Assembly: GCA_016178305.1 (NCBI GenBank)
Contig: JACOTM010000048.1
Location: 1 to 64,000 of the forward strand
Source: Flavobacteriia bacterium
Lineage (GTDB): Bacteria > Bacteroidota > Bacteroidia > Flavobacteriales_D > Crocinitomicaceae
Reading direction: 5' to 3'
DNA: 64,000 bases
Below, piece after piece: positions 18,522 through 42,988 of this stretch. The notes under the pieces are model-generated. The model had not been told where the DNA came from. It saw only the letters and a list, made by a program, of their open reading frames with translations, and made no database searches. Every line of letters begins with the position of its first letter. Position 1 is the stretch's first letter. Both the position numbers and the translations under genes were made by a program.

Positions 18522-19256
18522 TTGAAAAACTTTTTACATATCCAAAAATGGGGTTGTTTACTTGTATTTGTAAACTTCTCCTTTTTGGTTTTCGGGCAAT
18601 TGAATTTAACGTTTCAACATTTTGTTGGCGATGATAGTTTACAGCTTGATTCAGGGAAATACATAAATGAATTAAATCAAGATTTTACAGTTTCGAAAAT
18701 TAAGTACTATATAGGAAAAGTATCACTTATAAATTCGAAAGGAAATAGTACTTCAAAATCTTCTTATTTTTTAATAAATGAAGATGAAAAAGAAAGTTTG
18801 AGTAACAATCGATTAGATGTTCCTGAAGGCGATTACGTTGGAATTGAATTTATCATAGGAGTTGATAGTCTTGAAAATGTAAGTGGGATTCAAAATGGCG
18901 CTTTGGATGTTGTAAATGCGATGTTTTGGACCTGGAATTCGGGTTATGTTTTTATGAAATTAGAAGGAAATTCAAGTTTTTCCAATCAACCGAATCATAT
19001 TTTTGAATACCATATTGGAGGTTTTTCGGGAGAAAATAATTCCGTTAGAAAAATAAAATTAATCTTTAATAGTCCTGTCAAAATAAATAAGGGAGAAGAT
19101 GTGGTAATTAACCTAAAAGTTGATTTATTAGAAATATTAAAGCATCCAAATTCGATTGATTTTAGAGAAAATTCATCTATAGTTGAACCTTCAACAAGTT
19201 TTGTTATAGCAAATAATTATTCAGACATATTTTCAATCATTTCAATTGTAAAATAA
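18522..19256 (+). CDS. MbnP-like copper-binding protein
   Basis: A secreted 244-residue protein (signal ending near FLVFGQ) with the MbnP-family pattern: N-terminal LNLTFQHFVGDDSL, FTVSKIKYYIGKVSL, VPEGDYVGIEFIIGVDS and the core AMFWTWNSGYVFMKLEG with Trp136 and Trp138. In the studied methanotroph MbnP, a tryptophan is oxidised to kynurenine by the di-heme partner MbnH and this creates a copper site. The paired MbnH-like gene starts one base downstream. The start codon is TTG, three bases after the YHYH stop. Copper binding here is inferred from family and context. Confidence 0.8.
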   Translation: MKNFLHIQKWGCLLVFVNFSFLVFGQLNLTFQHFVGDDSLQLDSGKYINELNQDFTVSKIKYYIGKVSLINSKGNSTSKSSYFLINEDEKESLSNNRLDVPEGDYVGIEFIIGVDSLENVSGIQNGALDVVNAMFWTWNSGYVFMKLEGNSSFSNQPNHIFEYHIGGFSGENNSVRKIKLIFNSPVKINKGEDVVINLKVDLLEILKHPNSIDFRENSSIVEPSTSFVIANNYSDIFSIISIVK

Positions 19257-19257
19257 A

Positions 19258-20316
19258 GTGAAAGTTCAATTTTTATATCTGTTTGTGGTGATTTCAATTA
19301 CGCTTATTTTGTTCAGTTTTGATCAGAAAGAAGATTTTTTTGAGATTACTAAGAAAGATGTGAAGTTTATTGTTCCAAAAGGATTTCCAGAACCTAATTA
19401 CAAGTTTAAAAACAATAAATTGACACCTGAAATTTTTCTGATAGGAAGAAAATTATTTTATGATGAAATTCTTTCAAAAGACAATACGGTAAGTTGTGCA
19501 TCTTGTCATGAACGTATTGCTGCTTTTGCTCATGTCGATCATAAGTTAAGTCATGGAATTTATGGCAAAATAGGTACGCGTAATGTTCCTCCAATTCAAA
19601 ATATGGTTTGGAAAACATCTTTCATGTGGGACGGAGGAATCAATCACATAGAAGTTCAACCGATTGGACCAATTACCAATAAAATTGAAATGGATGAAAC
19701 GATTGAAAACGTCATTTTTAAAATAAAGAAAGATCCAATTTATGTTCAAATGTTTCAAAAAGCTTATAAAGATGATATAATTTCTAGTGAACGAATCATG
19801 AAATCGTTAACGCAATTCATTGGAATGATGGTTTCATCCAATTCGAGATACGATCGATTCATTCAACAGAAAGATACATTATCAAAGCTAGAAAAAAATG
19901 GATTGACTTTATTTAGACAGAAATGTGCTTCTTGTCATACTGAACCTTTGTTTTCAAATAATCAATTTTTGAGTAATGGTTTAAAGATGGATTCTACATT
20001 AAAAGATTATGGACGTTATTCGATTACCAAAAAAGAAGAAGATAAATTGAAATTTTCTGTTCCGAGTTTAAGAAATATTGAAATGACCTATCCATACATG
20101 CACGATGGTCGTTTTAAAAAATTATCTGATGTTTTAAACTTTTATTCAAATTCAAGTTTGCATTCAGAAAATGTTGATGCAAGAGTCAAAAATATTGGTG
20201 TATTATCTGCAGACGATAAAAAATCGATTATCGCATTTCTATTGACACTGACAGATAAAAGTTTTTTATACGACCGCAGATTTGTAGATCCTGAATATGT
20301 ATTTAGGAAGGAATAA
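19258..20316 (+). CDS. MbnH-like di-heme cytochrome c peroxidase
   Basis: An exported (MKVQFLYLFVVISITLILFS) 352-residue protein of the bacterial di-heme cytochrome c peroxidase/MauG superfamily. Two CASCH heme c motifs are at residues 80-84 and 223-227. Other family segments are GRKLFYDEILSKD, GTRNVPPIQNMVW, MWDGG and a C-terminal VPSLRNIEMTYPYMHDGRF. Members paired with MbnP modify a tryptophan of their partner rather than detoxifying peroxide. GTG start, one base after the MbnP-like stop. Maturation needs covalent heme attachment, which bears on the defective ccsBA gene at 40-43 kb. Confidence 0.85.
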   Translation: MKVQFLYLFVVISITLILFSFDQKEDFFEITKKDVKFIVPKGFPEPNYKFKNNKLTPEIFLIGRKLFYDEILSKDNTVSCASCHERIAAFAHVDHKLSHGIYGKIGTRNVPPIQNMVWKTSFMWDGGINHIEVQPIGPITNKIEMDETIENVIFKIKKDPIYVQMFQKAYKDDIISSERIMKSLTQFIGMMVSSNSRYDRFIQQKDTLSKLEKNGLTLFRQKCASCHTEPLFSNNQFLSNGLKMDSTLKDYGRYSITKKEEDKLKFSVPSLRNIEMTYPYMHDGRFKKLSDVLNFYSNSSLHSENVDARVKNIGVLSADDKKSIIAFLLTLTDKSFLYDRRFVDPEYVFRKE

Positions 20317-37812: not shown

Positions 37813-38955
37813 TTAAATGAAAAGTCTTTTTGTAGATTGTGAAATATTTCGGACATATTTAATGTCAATTTGATTTTTAATCAAGGCGGTCAGTAAATTA
37901 TTGAAACCATTTTCTTCATCAATAGTTATGAGATATAAGCCGCCATTGTAATCTATTTTTTTTTTTTTTTTATGTCCAATTGCGTTGTTTAATTCGTCTC
38001 TCGTACAATTGACATCGAGTTCCATAAAGCATAAACCTTCTTCAGTGTTGGTATCTGATAATTTAGTTGGTTTGCCATTTTTTAAGAACATTACCTTATC
38101 GGAAACTTTTTCGACTTCAAATAATTGTTGTGAGCTTAAAATAATCCCAATTGGGTTTGAAATACTTAAAGATAAGTTCTTTAAATCTTCTAATATTACT
38201 TGCTGTGCTACAACATCAAGGTTTGCTAATGGCTCATCTAATAACAAAATTTGAGGTGCTCTCAGGAATGTTCGAGCTAATTCAAAGCGCATTTTGTAGC
38301 CAGAGGATAATTCGTCCCAATTATGATTTCGATAACTCCATAAGCCAAATCGAATGATCATCATATTAACCATCAATTCATTTTCTTCACCATTGATTCC
38401 GTAATGGGAAGCTGCAAATTTTAAATTGCTTTTTAACGATCCGTACCATTTTGGTGTTCGCTGTGGGATATAAGTTAATTTAGTTCGAAGTTCATATTCG
38501 GAGAGATCGCTTTCGTCTAAAGAATATTTTATTTCTCCTGAATCGTATTTTAAATCTTTTGCTAATATTCTTAAAAGAGTCGTTTTTCCATTTCCATTTT
38601 CACCAACTAATCCCCAAACATCTCCTTGCTTTACTTTTAAAGAAACTTCTCCTAATTGAAAATTTCCACGACCGTATTTTTTAACAATATTTGTGGCTTC
38701 TAACAAGGTAGGATGTTTGTCTGATTCTACTTCAATTTTTTCTAATTTTGAAATAAAAAGAGAGACTTTTTGATGAAGAATATCTTTGGAAGGAACATGA
38801 GTTTCTTTCCAATCTGTTAAATCAATCGCTTCTTGGTAGATACTTAAATTTTTTGTATCTAAAACGCAGTCAATTAATTTTCGATAACCTAAATTATAGT
38901 CTCCATTTTGAAAATGTTCGGTAACGATTTGTAGTTTTTCTTTGTATGTTATCAT
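37813..38955 (-). CDS. ABC transporter ATP-binding protein with N-terminal helical extension
   Basis: A 380-residue ATPase. An 80-residue helical N-terminal extension precedes the ABC domain. Walker A GENGNGKTT is at 118-126, the signature region LSSGYKMRFELARTF at 216-230 (replacing LSGGQ) and Walker B ILLLDE at 236-241. Where most family members carry the switch His (SSH), this protein reads ILSSQQLFEVE. A C-terminal domain of about 90 residues follows and contains a five-lysine run (329-333) encoded by a 16-nt A tract. The gene is followed by the membrane protein at 36058-37797; substrate unknown. Confidence 0.85.
   Translation of the reverse strand: MITYKEKLQIVTEHFQNGDYNLGYRKLIDCVLDTKNLSIYQEAIDLTDWKETHVPSKDILHQKVSLFISKLEKIEVESDKHPTLLEATNIVKKYGRGNFQLGEVSLKVKQGDVWGLVGENGNGKTTLLRILAKDLKYDSGEIKYSLDESDLSEYELRTKLTYIPQRTPKWYGSLKSNLKFAASHYGINGEENELMVNMMIIRFGLWSYRNHNWDELSSGYKMRFELARTFLRAPQILLLDEPLANLDVVAQQVILEDLKNLSLSISNPIGIILSSQQLFEVEKVSDKVMFLKNGKPTKLSDTNTEEGLCFMELDVNCTRDELNNAIGHKKKKKIDYNGGLYLITIDEENGFNNLLTALIKNQIDIKYVRNISQSTKRLFI
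37956..37971. repeat. 16-nt homopolymer tract inside the ABC ATPase gene
   Basis: Sixteen consecutive T on the plus strand, hence sixteen A in the coding strand, encode Lys329-Lys333 plus the first base of an Ile codon. Slippage by one or two bases would change the last roughly 47 residues without touching the ATPase motifs. It could also be a sequencing or assembly weak point. Confidence 0.85.
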
Positions 38956-39075
38956 AAACTCTTTTCAGTGTAAATTCGAGAAAGTTGTTTAGCTAAAATA
39001 ATAGATTTTTAAATATGATTTGAAATTCAATAATTTATCAATAAACATTGAATTGTTAAGAGCTGACTTCGAGAG

Positions 39076-39180
39076 CCTCAGTCAGCATTTAGCCTCAATC
39101 AACTTTCAGCTTCAATTAGCTTTCATCCTCAGTCAGCATTTAGCCTCAGTCAGCGTGTTTCAGCTTCAGTTAACTTTCAG
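39076..39180. repeat. Six-unit 17-bp tandem repeat
   Basis: Units start at 39076, 39093, 39110, 39127, 39144 and 39164; the fifth is 20 bases, the rest 17. Examples are CCTCAGTCAGCATTTAG (units 1 and 4, identical), CCTCAATCAACTTTCAG (unit 2) and CTTCAGTTAACTTTCAG (unit 6). It occupies the spacer between the bshB1 3' end and the ABC ATPase gene start. An open frame through it is a product of the repeat and not a gene. Confidence 0.8.
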
Positions 39181-39217
39181 TTTCAGGGGGGAAATGTTTT
39201 GGGGATTTAGGTAGCGT

Positions 39218-39934
39218 TTAAATTAAATCAAAAAAATCGTTGACTCCAATTGTTCGTTCAGTCGTAAATCCTTCACCGTATTTTGTTTGAATAACCCTGC
39301 CGAATTGTATCATTCGGGCTTCGACACTGTCTAAAAAATCTTGTCCTGAAATAGGCGTTTGAGGTTCTTTTGATTGCGGATTGTAAAATTGTGTTTTGTA
39401 AGCTTTGATTGCTTTCATTTTTTGATCATAATATTCAGAAACATCAACGATAAAGTCTGGTTTTAAATAAATGTCTTGAATGTAATGATAAACAAATTTT
39501 GGACGGTGCACTTCCTGAATTTTATGATCCCATTTGGTTTCAATTTTTCTCAATCCAGCCAAAAAGCAAGCTTCAGAAACTAATTTTGAGGCTTTTGGAT
39601 GATCAGGATGCCGATCGTCAATAGCATTCGCTAAAATTATTTCAGGCTTAAAACGTCTGATTTGTTCAATTATTTGTATTAAATTTTCTTTAGAGTGTTC
39701 AAAAAATCCATCAGCCATTTTTAAATTCCCTCTGAAATGAATCCCCATTATTTTAGAGGCTTCTAATGCTTCATCATAACGCGATTCAATAGTGCCACGA
39801 GAACCTAATTCACCTTGAGTTAAGTCAATAATCCCCACTTTTTTACCAGCTTCAATGTGTTTCATTAAAGTGCCAGAGGCTGCTAGTTCAATGTCGTCGG
39901 GATGGGCTGCGAATGCAAGAATGTTCAGTTTCAT
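39218..39934 (-). CDS. bshB1: Bacillithiol biosynthesis deacetylase BshB1
   Basis: A LmbE/PIG-L-type zinc deacetylase that removes acetate from GlcNAc-malate in bacillithiol synthesis. The zinc motif AAHPDDIE with the later HPDH (DDRHPDHPKASKL), GELGSRGT and FVYHYIQDIYLKPDFIVDVS are typical of BshB1. It is 238 residues and cytoplasmic. Its ATG overlaps the stop codon of the ccsBA C-terminal fragment (ATGA at 39934-39931), so translation was coupled to intact ccsBA. Confidence 0.93.
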   Translation of the reverse strand: MKLNILAFAAHPDDIELAASGTLMKHIEAGKKVGIIDLTQGELGSRGTIESRYDEALEASKIMGIHFRGNLKMADGFFEHSKENLIQIIEQIRRFKPEIILANAIDDRHPDHPKASKLVSEACFLAGLRKIETKWDHKIQEVHRPKFVYHYIQDIYLKPDFIVDVSEYYDQKMKAIKAYKTQFYNPQSKEPQTPISGQDFLDSVEARMIQFGRVIQTKYGEGFTTERTIGVNDFFDLI

Positions 39935-40074
39935 TCGAATTTATTATTTGGTTGGTTCACTTCTTTAAGATATTTTTTATTCTTAAAACTGGCTAGAATT
40001 GTTAATCCAACAAAGAACAATAATACATATTTTATCCAACTCGGAATTGTCCCTAATCCATCTCCTTGAGCAAT
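39931..40074 (-). pseudogene. Frameshifted C-terminal end of ccsBA
   Basis: On the minus strand, in a different frame from the main ccsBA ORF and overlapping its last codons, the DNA encodes 47 residues: IAQGDGLGTIPSWIKYVLLF, then FVGLTILASF, then a basic tail ending KFE. This matches the usual end of Bacteroidota CcsA (a Gly-Asp after the last periplasmic His, then one membrane helix and a Lys-rich tail). It has no start codon of its own. Its TGA overlaps the bshB1 ATG, evidence that it is the original end of ccsBA. Confidence 0.75.
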
Positions 40075-42839
40075 CCGATTGTCATTGTCATCTCACTGAT
40101 GTATGTTATTTCTAAAATATGAAGTGAAATTGATTTTCCATTGTTTTCATTTCTAAAAATGTATAATATTAAATTCATCAGTCCTAAAATACAAGCTAAT
40201 CCGAGGAAACCATAACTTCCTGTGATGATGGCAACATGAATCATTAACCAATAAGATTTTAAGACGGGTTGTAAAGGTGTAATTTGAGGGTCCATTAAAT
40301 TCATTTCAGTAACGAATATCATTAAAGAAGCTAAAATGGCTGCGACTGCTAAAATAACTGGATTTTTTCTTGCAAAAGCAAATCCGGCAATCATTGTTAC
40401 CCAAGAGATAAATACAACAGCTTCATAACCATTACTCCAAGGAGCATGTTCTGTTATTGTCCATCTGAATCCGATCCCCGTACCTTGATAAATAAACGTT
40501 ATAGCTAAAAGGATTGTTCCAATTAAGCCGATATTTTTAAATTTTTTAGAATTTGGATTTTTTGAAAAAATACGTAAGAAAAACACAATTAACAGTCCAA
40601 AGCCAATTGAAATATACAACTTCAAAGTATTTCCGAAAATATTCATTTTGTTGTATTTAATCTCAATGTTGACTTTTGTTTCAGAGGGAACTACATTTTT
40701 TCCAACTGTCCGTTGAAACTGGATTAATTTATCCAATAATACATCTGATTTTGAAAATGATTTTTTTTCTGCGGAACTATTCAGACTTGAAATATATTCC
40801 AAAGCAATTCTTGATGAAGTGGAATCAATCTGATTTAATTCTGGACTCAACGGAACATACCACGTGTTGTTTTGCGCATTCGTAACAGGAATTATTTTCA
40901 TGAATTGCCAGCTAAATATCGCTTGAACCATTTGAAAATCATCTACTAATTTAACTAGTTTTTTATCAAATTCATCTCTTTTTGAATCTGGTTTTTGAAA
41001 TGCAGACTCATATTCTTTGGCTAATTTAAAATCGCCATTTGGGGTAATTAATTCTTTGTATGATGCAAATGAGCCCACTTTCAAACGGTCTCTTAAATTG
41101 ACAGGTATAACAATGATTTTTTCATTCATCCAATGTTCAGGATACATGTGCATACTAAATATTGTTTGAACTGCGTTAAGATTATTGTATCTTGTATTAT
41201 TTGCTATATCTCGAAGTAATTTATCGCATAAAGTATGCATAGGAGAAATTCTCCCTTCAAATTCTTGAACCAATAAATGACCTAATTTTTCGGAGTGTTC
41301 CTCTGAGATAATTCTATAAACAGGTTTGGTATGTTGATGATTTTCATGTTGTGCTAAAGTTGTAAATTGAACCATTGAAATAAGTGCAACAAGAATTCCG
41401 AGGGAGTTTCTTTTATCGTTTAATTTTTTCAATTTTTCATTGATTTCTCTGAAACGACCACCTGGAGCAAAAATAGATAGAATCATCCCTGTAAACATTA
41501 ATAAATAACCTATGTATGTAATATTTGTACCCCACCAATCATGGTTTACACTTAAATGAGTCCCTTTTTCATCTTGATCGTAACCGGATTGGAAAAAGCG
41601 AAAACCATTGTAGTCCATTACGTGATTCATAAATATTTTTTGATCTCTTTTGTAATTGTTTTTCATGTCCACAATGGTCACTTGACTCGAAAAAGAAGAA
41701 GGAGAGTTTGATCCTGGGTAGCGAATTAATTCAAAATCTCTACAAGCAACTCGAAAAGGAATTTCAATTTTTGTTGAACCATATTCCATTTCGTAAATTA
41801 AACCAGCAAAACTAAAGGTTACATGTTCCGGTATTGCATCTTTTCCTCCCGCTAATGAAACGAGCGTACTTACTTTACCATCCGTTATTTTTACGGTTAA
41901 ATAATCTGTGCCAACATTTCTTTTTCCTGAAGGAAGACGCATTTTTTTAGCATTTTTAATCACTTCTTTAAATACGAATTGTTGTCCATTTACGATGTAA
42001 AGTGTTGTTGTTTTGAGATCTACCAATGTATCAATTGGAATTTGTTCGTAAAGTGAATCATTTGGCATTTGCCCTGATTGTCTTACTTTTTGCATCTCAG
42101 CCATCGGTAAGCATTTCAAAGGAAAAGCAGATTTTAATTTTAATTTACCATTGATTGCATAAAGATTGATACCTTGGGCAGCATCTTGTTTTTCAAAAGA
42201 TATTGGAACTGTTCCAATCATTAAGAAATTATTTTTTTCTAAATAATTAGATTTCATTCCATCGGTTTTGATATCCAGTACAAAATCTTTAATCGAGTCG
42301 TTGACAACCAATGAATCGATCATTTTTTTCTCATATTTGACAAATTCAATTTTTATTGGATTTTTATGTTTGGGAAAAATGAAATCGTGTGAAAAATAGT
42401 TGGATGTTATTTCAGACATTAACATTTTTTCATTGTACTGATATTGCATTTTTCCATCATTGACCTTGAACCAAAAATGCGGGTCTGAGGAAAGAATAGT
42501 GTTGCTGTCTTCGCCTTCTCGAATAATCATCATGCCTTCGTACCCAAAATAGCGTGTAACTCCAGCGCCAATTAAAACAATAATAAATGATAAGTGAAAA
42601 GCCAATGAAGCAATTTTTTCCCGACGAAATAGGTTGTATTTAAAGATATTTGAAATTAAATTCATACCTAAATAAGTTAATAATATCTCAAACCATAAAG
42701 CGTTATAAATTATTATTTTAGCAGTTTGAGTATCATAAGCGGATTCTAAAAATGTTGCTGTTCCAATTGCAAAAAGGAAGATAAACATTCCAAGAGCCAT
42801 CATTTTCATTGAAAAAAAAGATTGTGCAAACTTTTCCAT
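40053..42839 (-). CDS. ccsBA: Cytochrome c biogenesis protein CcsBA lacking the WWD heme site
   Basis: A System II heme lyase fusion. The N-terminal ResB/CcsB part (MEKFAQSFFSMKMMALGMFI, FHLSFIIVLIGAGVTRYFGY, HVMDYNGFRFFQSGYDQDE) and a large periplasmic domain precede the CcsA part (WTITEHAPWSNGYEAVVFIS, MIHVAIITGSYGFLGLACIL). The frame then reads SEMTMTIGLLKEMD and stops at the point where CcsA proteins continue with the tryptophan-rich WWD heme-binding segment and the second periplasmic His. Those 75 or so residues are absent, while the C-terminus survives in another frame (39931-40074). This points to an internal deletion that should abolish heme attachment, or to an assembly error. Start chosen at ATG 42839 (MEKFAQ) rather than 42860. 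Confidence 0.85.
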   Translation of the reverse strand: MEKFAQSFFSMKMMALGMFIFLFAIGTATFLESAYDTQTAKIIIYNALWFEILLTYLGMNLISNIFKYNLFRREKIASLAFHLSFIIVLIGAGVTRYFGYEGMMIIREGEDSNTILSSDPHFWFKVNDGKMQYQYNEKMLMSEITSNYFSHDFIFPKHKNPIKIEFVKYEKKMIDSLVVNDSIKDFVLDIKTDGMKSNYLEKNNFLMIGTVPISFEKQDAAQGINLYAINGKLKLKSAFPLKCLPMAEMQKVRQSGQMPNDSLYEQIPIDTLVDLKTTTLYIVNGQQFVFKEVIKNAKKMRLPSGKRNVGTDYLTVKITDGKVSTLVSLAGGKDAIPEHVTFSFAGLIYEMEYGSTKIEIPFRVACRDFELIRYPGSNSPSSFSSQVTIVDMKNNYKRDQKIFMNHVMDYNGFRFFQSGYDQDEKGTHLSVNHDWWGTNITYIGYLLMFTGMILSIFAPGGRFREINEKLKKLNDKRNSLGILVALISMVQFTTLAQHENHQHTKPVYRIISEEHSEKLGHLLVQEFEGRISPMHTLCDKLLRDIANNTRYNNLNAVQTIFSMHMYPEHWMNEKIIVIPVNLRDRLKVGSFASYKELITPNGDFKLAKEYESAFQKPDSKRDEFDKKLVKLVDDFQMVQAIFSWQFMKIIPVTNAQNNTWYVPLSPELNQIDSTSSRIALEYISSLNSSAEKKSFSKSDVLLDKLIQFQRTVGKNVVPSETKVNIEIKYNKMNIFGNTLKLYISIGFGLLIVFFLRIFSKNPNSKKFKNIGLIGTILLAITFIYQGTGIGFRWTITEHAPWSNGYEAVVFISWVTMIAGFAFARKNPVILAVAAILASLMIFVTEMNLMDPQITPLQPVLKSYWLMIHVAIITGSYGFLGLACILGLMNLILYIFRNENNGKSISLHILEITYISEMTMTIGLLKEMD

Positions 42840-42988
42840 TGTGTCTATTTTGAGGTACAAAAATAAGCATTGCAGTTAAAACAATCATCGGGTTTCGAAT
42901 TAAAGAATGTTATTTTTTGTCTTTTCAATGATGAATATCATTTTTGAAGAAAACGATCAACTGTATTTTTGCGAAAAAATGGAAAATA

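Follow-up and report, generated by a model that had tools for sequence, protein, structure and literature searches.

The ccsBA gene in the window analysed here (the whole 64,000-nucleotide stretch, on contig C50 of a Crocinitomicaceae assembly) lacks an internal block that encodes the WWD segment and two conserved histidines of a heme lyase, and its C-terminal tail is out of frame. Most likely, the broken ccsBA is not a feature of the organism's biology. With a probability of about 0.6, we consider the deletion to be false, an assembly or sequencing error, and living cells to carry an intact ccsBA; this estimate comes from assembled sequences rather than from reads. The favoured ranking places a false deletion in the assembly first, followed by a null allele that is very recent or belongs to part of a mixed population.

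The ccsBA locus and the missing block

The ccsBA open reading frame (40053-42860, minus strand) encodes 935 amino acids and ends in ...ISEMTMTIGLLKEMD before its stop codon. It tracks intact relatives through L930 (TTG, 40073-40071), the final genuine codon, and the C-terminal tail then follows in another frame, so that residues L931 to D935 form the frameshifted end of the reading frame (Table 1). Most full-length matches in relatives stop at window residue 929-931, and the pairing of L931 with a relative's F, being past the join, is on this reading due to chance. As the earlier note had described, the C terminus survives out of frame (AQGDGLGTIPSWIKYVLLFFVGLTILASFKNKKYLKEVNQPNNKFE and a stop), and its TGA (39933-39931) overlaps the ATG of bshB1 (39934-39932). 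The tail scores 76-117 against the tails of three relatives, whereas shuffled sequences (1,000 each) reach maxima of 10-19, and over the same stretch each of the other two frames contains five stops. By these comparisons, the tail is a real homologue.

Table 1. Coordinates (window numbering) of the features discussed in the text
Feature	Position	Strand	Remarks
MbnP-family protein	18522..19256	+	PF20243 166.5 bits; adjoins MbnH-like gene
MbnH/MauG-like di-heme protein, two CXXCH, intact	19258..20316	+	PF03150 170 bits; predicted CcsBA substrate
bshB1, bacillithiol biosynthesis deacetylase, intact	39218..39934	-	TIGR04001 301.1 bits, cut-off 182.5, profile 1-226/226
Out-of-frame ccsBA C-terminal tail, 46 codons + TGA	39931..40071	-	TGA overlaps bshB1 start
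Frameshifted ORF end (L K E M D, TAG)	40053..40070	-	residues L931-D935 and stop
Deletion join GGATT(G)/CTCAAGG	40070..40072	-	about 253 bases absent vs relatives
ccsBA retained 5' part	40071..42860	-	930 codons; ResB-like domain + start of Cytochrom_C_asm; TM-His2, P-His1 equivalents present

The closest named relatives are metagenome-assembled genomes (MAGs) with titles such as Fluviicola sp., Flavobacteriales, and Crocinitomicaceae, some of whose species labels are implausible. The intact genes of L032 to L035 (e.g., L033, Fluviicola sp. MAG 49624_E28) share 73-74% identity over residues 8-931, and in L004 and L006 a bshB1-like start lies next downstream, as in the window. Intact relatives carry the codons that the window gene has lost. 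Aligning their CcsBA, which the earlier note had proposed as a way to size the deletion, gave a spacing of 84 codons between the two break points in 101 of the 102 measurable loci (86 in L030), rather than the roughly 75 codons that it had estimated. These 102 were among 107 loci taken (96 of them distinct), the other five being interrupted by contig ends (L023, L014, L086, and L091) or by an NN gap (L076). The frameshift that had been suggested together with the deletion is borne out, with a predicted loss of 84 × 3 + 1 = 253 bases and a join at 40071/40070, placed to within 1-2 bases and free of Ns. Past the break point, L004 continues with 30 protein letters (not shown) and later reads ...GLHSYAQGDG...; in the window DNA, GGATTG is followed directly by CTCAAGGAGATGG, the stretch that encodes the AQGDG end, here in another frame. 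Rescue by frameshifting was rejected, since the missing 84 codons occur in none of the frames.

A repeat search of the window itself is uninformative about repeats flanking the deletion, because the deleted side is gone, and relatives were used instead. For the 90 distinct relatives in which the spacing is 84 codons, the break points have no base in common in 50, one in 5, and two in 35, and flanking repeats were rejected accordingly. A search of viral contigs with the 22-mer spanning the junction gave no match, which says little. Read from the letters, the damage to ccsBA appears to be one clean internal deletion.

The content of the missing block was established by aligning the window protein and the intact relative L033 to Helicobacter hepaticus CcsBA, a fused System II cytochrome c synthase (PDB 7s9y/7s9z); positions were counted by hand on the alignments to 7s9y, and histidines were assigned with a residue table in PMC11322641. 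The alignment extends over the CcsB/ResB-like part and the beginning of the CcsA domain, with the equivalents of TM-His2 (H83) and P-His1 (H761) in place, so that two of the four conserved histidines are kept. In contrast to the H. hepaticus protein, the window gene is without the WWD segment, which lies between P-His1 and P-His2, and without TM-His1 (H858) and P-His2 (H897). The earlier note had placed the stop just where the WWD segment and the second periplasmic His are expected; both are indeed absent, and TM-His1 is lost as well. Profile matches agree with the alignments: the CcsB/ResB-like domain is recognised (PF05140, 71.2 bits; cut-off, 24.6), while Cytochrom_C_asm is incomplete (PF01578 positions 1-137 of 212, 46.5 bits; cut-off, 29.9) and is covered over positions 1-212 in L033. 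For TIGR03144 the window protein scores 76.1 bits and intact L033 173.3 bits, both below the cut-off of 187.6. According to PMC6299221, cytochrome c maturation requires the WWD motif and the four histidines. As written, ccsBA could not function as a heme lyase, and the allele should be inactive.

Among the other genes of the window, those with a full-length model look complete, namely, LeuC, LeuD, LeuB, MutS, GlmM, lumazine synthase, a Dcp/OpdA-like peptidase, an aldolase, BshB1, a heptose epimerase, YsxC, PurE, and MbnH; three proteins had no full-length model. LeuA covers 385 of the 516 positions of its best model and nearly all of the shorter LeuA-type models, and so was not counted as damaged. 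Downstream of bshB1, on the same strand, lies an ABC ATPase gene (ORF 37813-38955, minus strand), separated from bshB1 by short tandem repeats with periods of 17 and 51 (39074-39186). The ATPase frame contains a run of 16 T (37956-37971), translated as a lysine run, which is a possible site of slippage or sequencing error.

Search for another lyase

The assembly comprises 3.6 Mb in 124 contigs and is rated 99.99% complete and 0.5% contaminated. Its only PF01578 match is the broken ccsBA; the profile search found no further match in the 3.6 Mb. Likewise, a 99-residue peptide of the WWD segment had no match in this assembly at E values up to 10, whereas at E values up to 0.001 it matched 223 of the 240 family genomes. 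Among good family genomes (at least 90% complete and at most 5% contaminated), 149 of 151 matched, the misses being this genome and G237, in which the ccsBA match extends to the end of its contig (bp 3744 of 3746); the remaining 15 misses fall in genomes less than 90% complete. The 149 include two weak, System I-like matches (E about 1e-5) in G014 and G035. A search of the assembly with a DNA motif also found no second copy, but carries little weight, having no positive control. The genome search for another ccsA or ccsB proposed in the earlier note thus came back empty for this assembly.

PF01578 was matched in 47 of 47 good genomes (among 59 searched, with the partial match of this genome counted). 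Of 111 fetched ccsBA loci, 109 matched the segment before the join (L080 and L096, at contig ends, did not), and 103 of these 109 carry the W-x-W-D motif; the six that do not comprise the window itself (L001 and L002), three loci at contig ends (L014, L086, and L091), and one with an NN gap (L076). Because no other PF01578 match exists in the assembly, a second lyase and a replacement by System I (CcmC/CcmF) were both rejected for this genome. Elsewhere in the family, G014 and G035 (genus g4) have no CcsBA match and two other PF01578 proteins each, one of the open frames in G035 being 1,011 amino acids long, and the same pattern occurs in several other Flavobacteriales families. It suggests that System I replaces System II within the family.

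Demand for c-type cytochromes and selection on the retained gene

Three COX1-type matches were found in this genome, and the CXXCH partners of all three sets are intact. The first (L154) consists of CcoN and CcoO fused into a protein that has one CXXCH and, next to it, a CcoP that has two. The second (L155 and L159) groups an aa3-type oxidase with two CXXCH proteins in one run, one of 239 amino acids with a single CXXCH and one of 449 amino acids with six, which we read as putative ActE and ActA, respectively, from gene order and motifs; the dependence of this oxidase on c-type heme is presumed from these neighbours. The third (L157) is a COX1-like protein of 445 amino acids preceded by a one-CXXCH protein resembling NorC, and on the same grounds the pair is tentatively named NorC-like/NorB-like. 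PF13442 has seven matches in the genome, three of which can be placed among the matches listed. No cytochrome bd was found in this genome at E values up to 0.001, at which 10 of 14 control genomes matched.

The window adds a predicted substrate of its own. The MbnH-like protein with two CXXCH motifs to which the earlier note had drawn attention is present (Table 1); it aligns to positions 4-335 of 336 of TIGR04039 with 201.7 bits, below the cut-off of 362.85. Its gene directly follows that of an MbnP-family protein, the two together occupying 18522-20316. From the intact c-type genes we infer that maturation of c-type cytochromes continues in the cells; the deletion would then be absent from them, or from most of them.

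The retained part of ccsBA points in the same direction. Its dN/dS was 0.111-0.115 against L003, L004, and L005, 0.133 against L007, and 0.206 against L008, figures that are rough since dS exceeds 1 and is saturated in the pairs that include the window. Pairs of intact genes gave 0.03-0.07 when both came from L003-L005 and 0.13-0.15 in the remaining comparisons. This analysis covered 10 sequences and 926 aligned codons, with gapped columns and the last few codons dropped; L006 (in-frame TAA in its match) and many more-distant loci were left out. The window gene is 0.006 to 0.023 farther from four outgroups than L003-L005 are, and its tree branch is 0.205, compared with about 0.14-0.16 for its sisters; by these measures the rate excess is mild at most. 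The 930 retained codons are free of stops, although one is expected to arise with every 0.0076 neutral substitutions per site. As far as such comparisons reach, the pattern shows purifying selection on the remaining ccsBA. The deletion, if real, is very young.

Origin and meaning of the deletion

The earlier note had left three options, namely, a second copy elsewhere, loss of heme attachment, and a wrong assembly. The last, or else a very recent deletion that is not fixed, is the best remaining explanation, while the other two have lost ground. Because the only lyase found is broken, the c-type respiratory genes are intact, no cytochrome bd was found, and the rest of ccsBA has been under selection, a fixed loss of ccsBA is implausible; a stable loss of heme attachment fits this genome badly. 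In the reading that we prefer, a chimeric read or a local assembly error would have been fixed into the consensus and produced a false deletion of about 253 bases; living cells would have an intact, ordinary System II heme lyase gene, and the null version would exist only in the assembly. The contrast between the broken sole lyase and the intact demand for c-type heme speaks for it, as do the segment matches in 149 of the 151 good family genomes and the selected, stop-free remainder of ccsBA. An independent example is L076 (UBA5871), a MAG in which an assembly gap of NN (L076:3945-3946) falls within the WWD segment, so that some of it is lost and the reading frame changes; that locus has seven NN gaps in 7.9 kb. 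Against a false deletion stand the cleanness of the join and its 0-2 shared bases, a pattern not expected from a repeat-driven graph error, and the apparent completeness of the other window genes that have full-length models, which means that the assembly is not generally bad. The dN/dS of 0.11 for the window gene, higher than the 0.03-0.07 among L003-L005, also counts against it, with the limitation that these three are much closer to one another. A graph tangle caused by DNA that related species have in common was rejected, since the 31-mers shared with L033 and L009, the two loci used (L034 and L035 were merged with identical sequences), show no clustering at the deleted block; this, too, counts against a false deletion. 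Reads must cross such a join for it to be assembled cleanly, which makes a mixed population or a library chimera at a poorly covered spot more likely than a purely computational collapse.

The same clean join, with so few shared bases, is also what illegitimate recombination leaves, and a real and very recent deletion comes next in our ranking, at odds clearly below even. The sequenced strain, or a large part of a mixed population, would then carry a null allele beside c-type genes that have not yet decayed; both pieces of ccsBA are otherwise intact and the neighbouring genes with full-length models are complete, as this would predict. However, all three COX1-type sets include CXXCH proteins and no cytochrome bd was found, so cells with the deletion should not respire, and apart from this genome the segment match is missing, among the good family genomes, only where a contig ends. 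That the deletion is real and tolerated thanks to an intact second ccsBA that escaped assembly or binning is improbable. G004, of the same genus, does have two copies, each with a match to the WWD peptide, but one of them (L009) differs by 4% from a protein of genus g2 (L010) and may reflect bin contamination, G004 being rated 5% contaminated; moreover, no piece of a second copy is present in an assembly rated as nearly complete as this one. We give hardly any credence to heme attachment by an unrecognised route in a respiring bacterium with a full c-type set and no WWD-type lyase: the negative lyase searches are all that favour it, and both the PF01578 match in every good genome searched and the purifying selection on the remaining ccsBA speak against it.

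If the deletion is false, as we favour, it is a useful caution that even in a genome rated 99.99% complete a central gene can have a clean internal deletion, which automatic annotation could report as a pseudogene or as a lost cytochrome c maturation pathway. According to PMC11322641, CcsBA is essential in Campylobacter jejuni, a species that also has cytochrome bd, and this likewise favours a false deletion. If the deletion is real, the window would hold a natural null allele of a gene that the same source reports to be essential in other bacteria.
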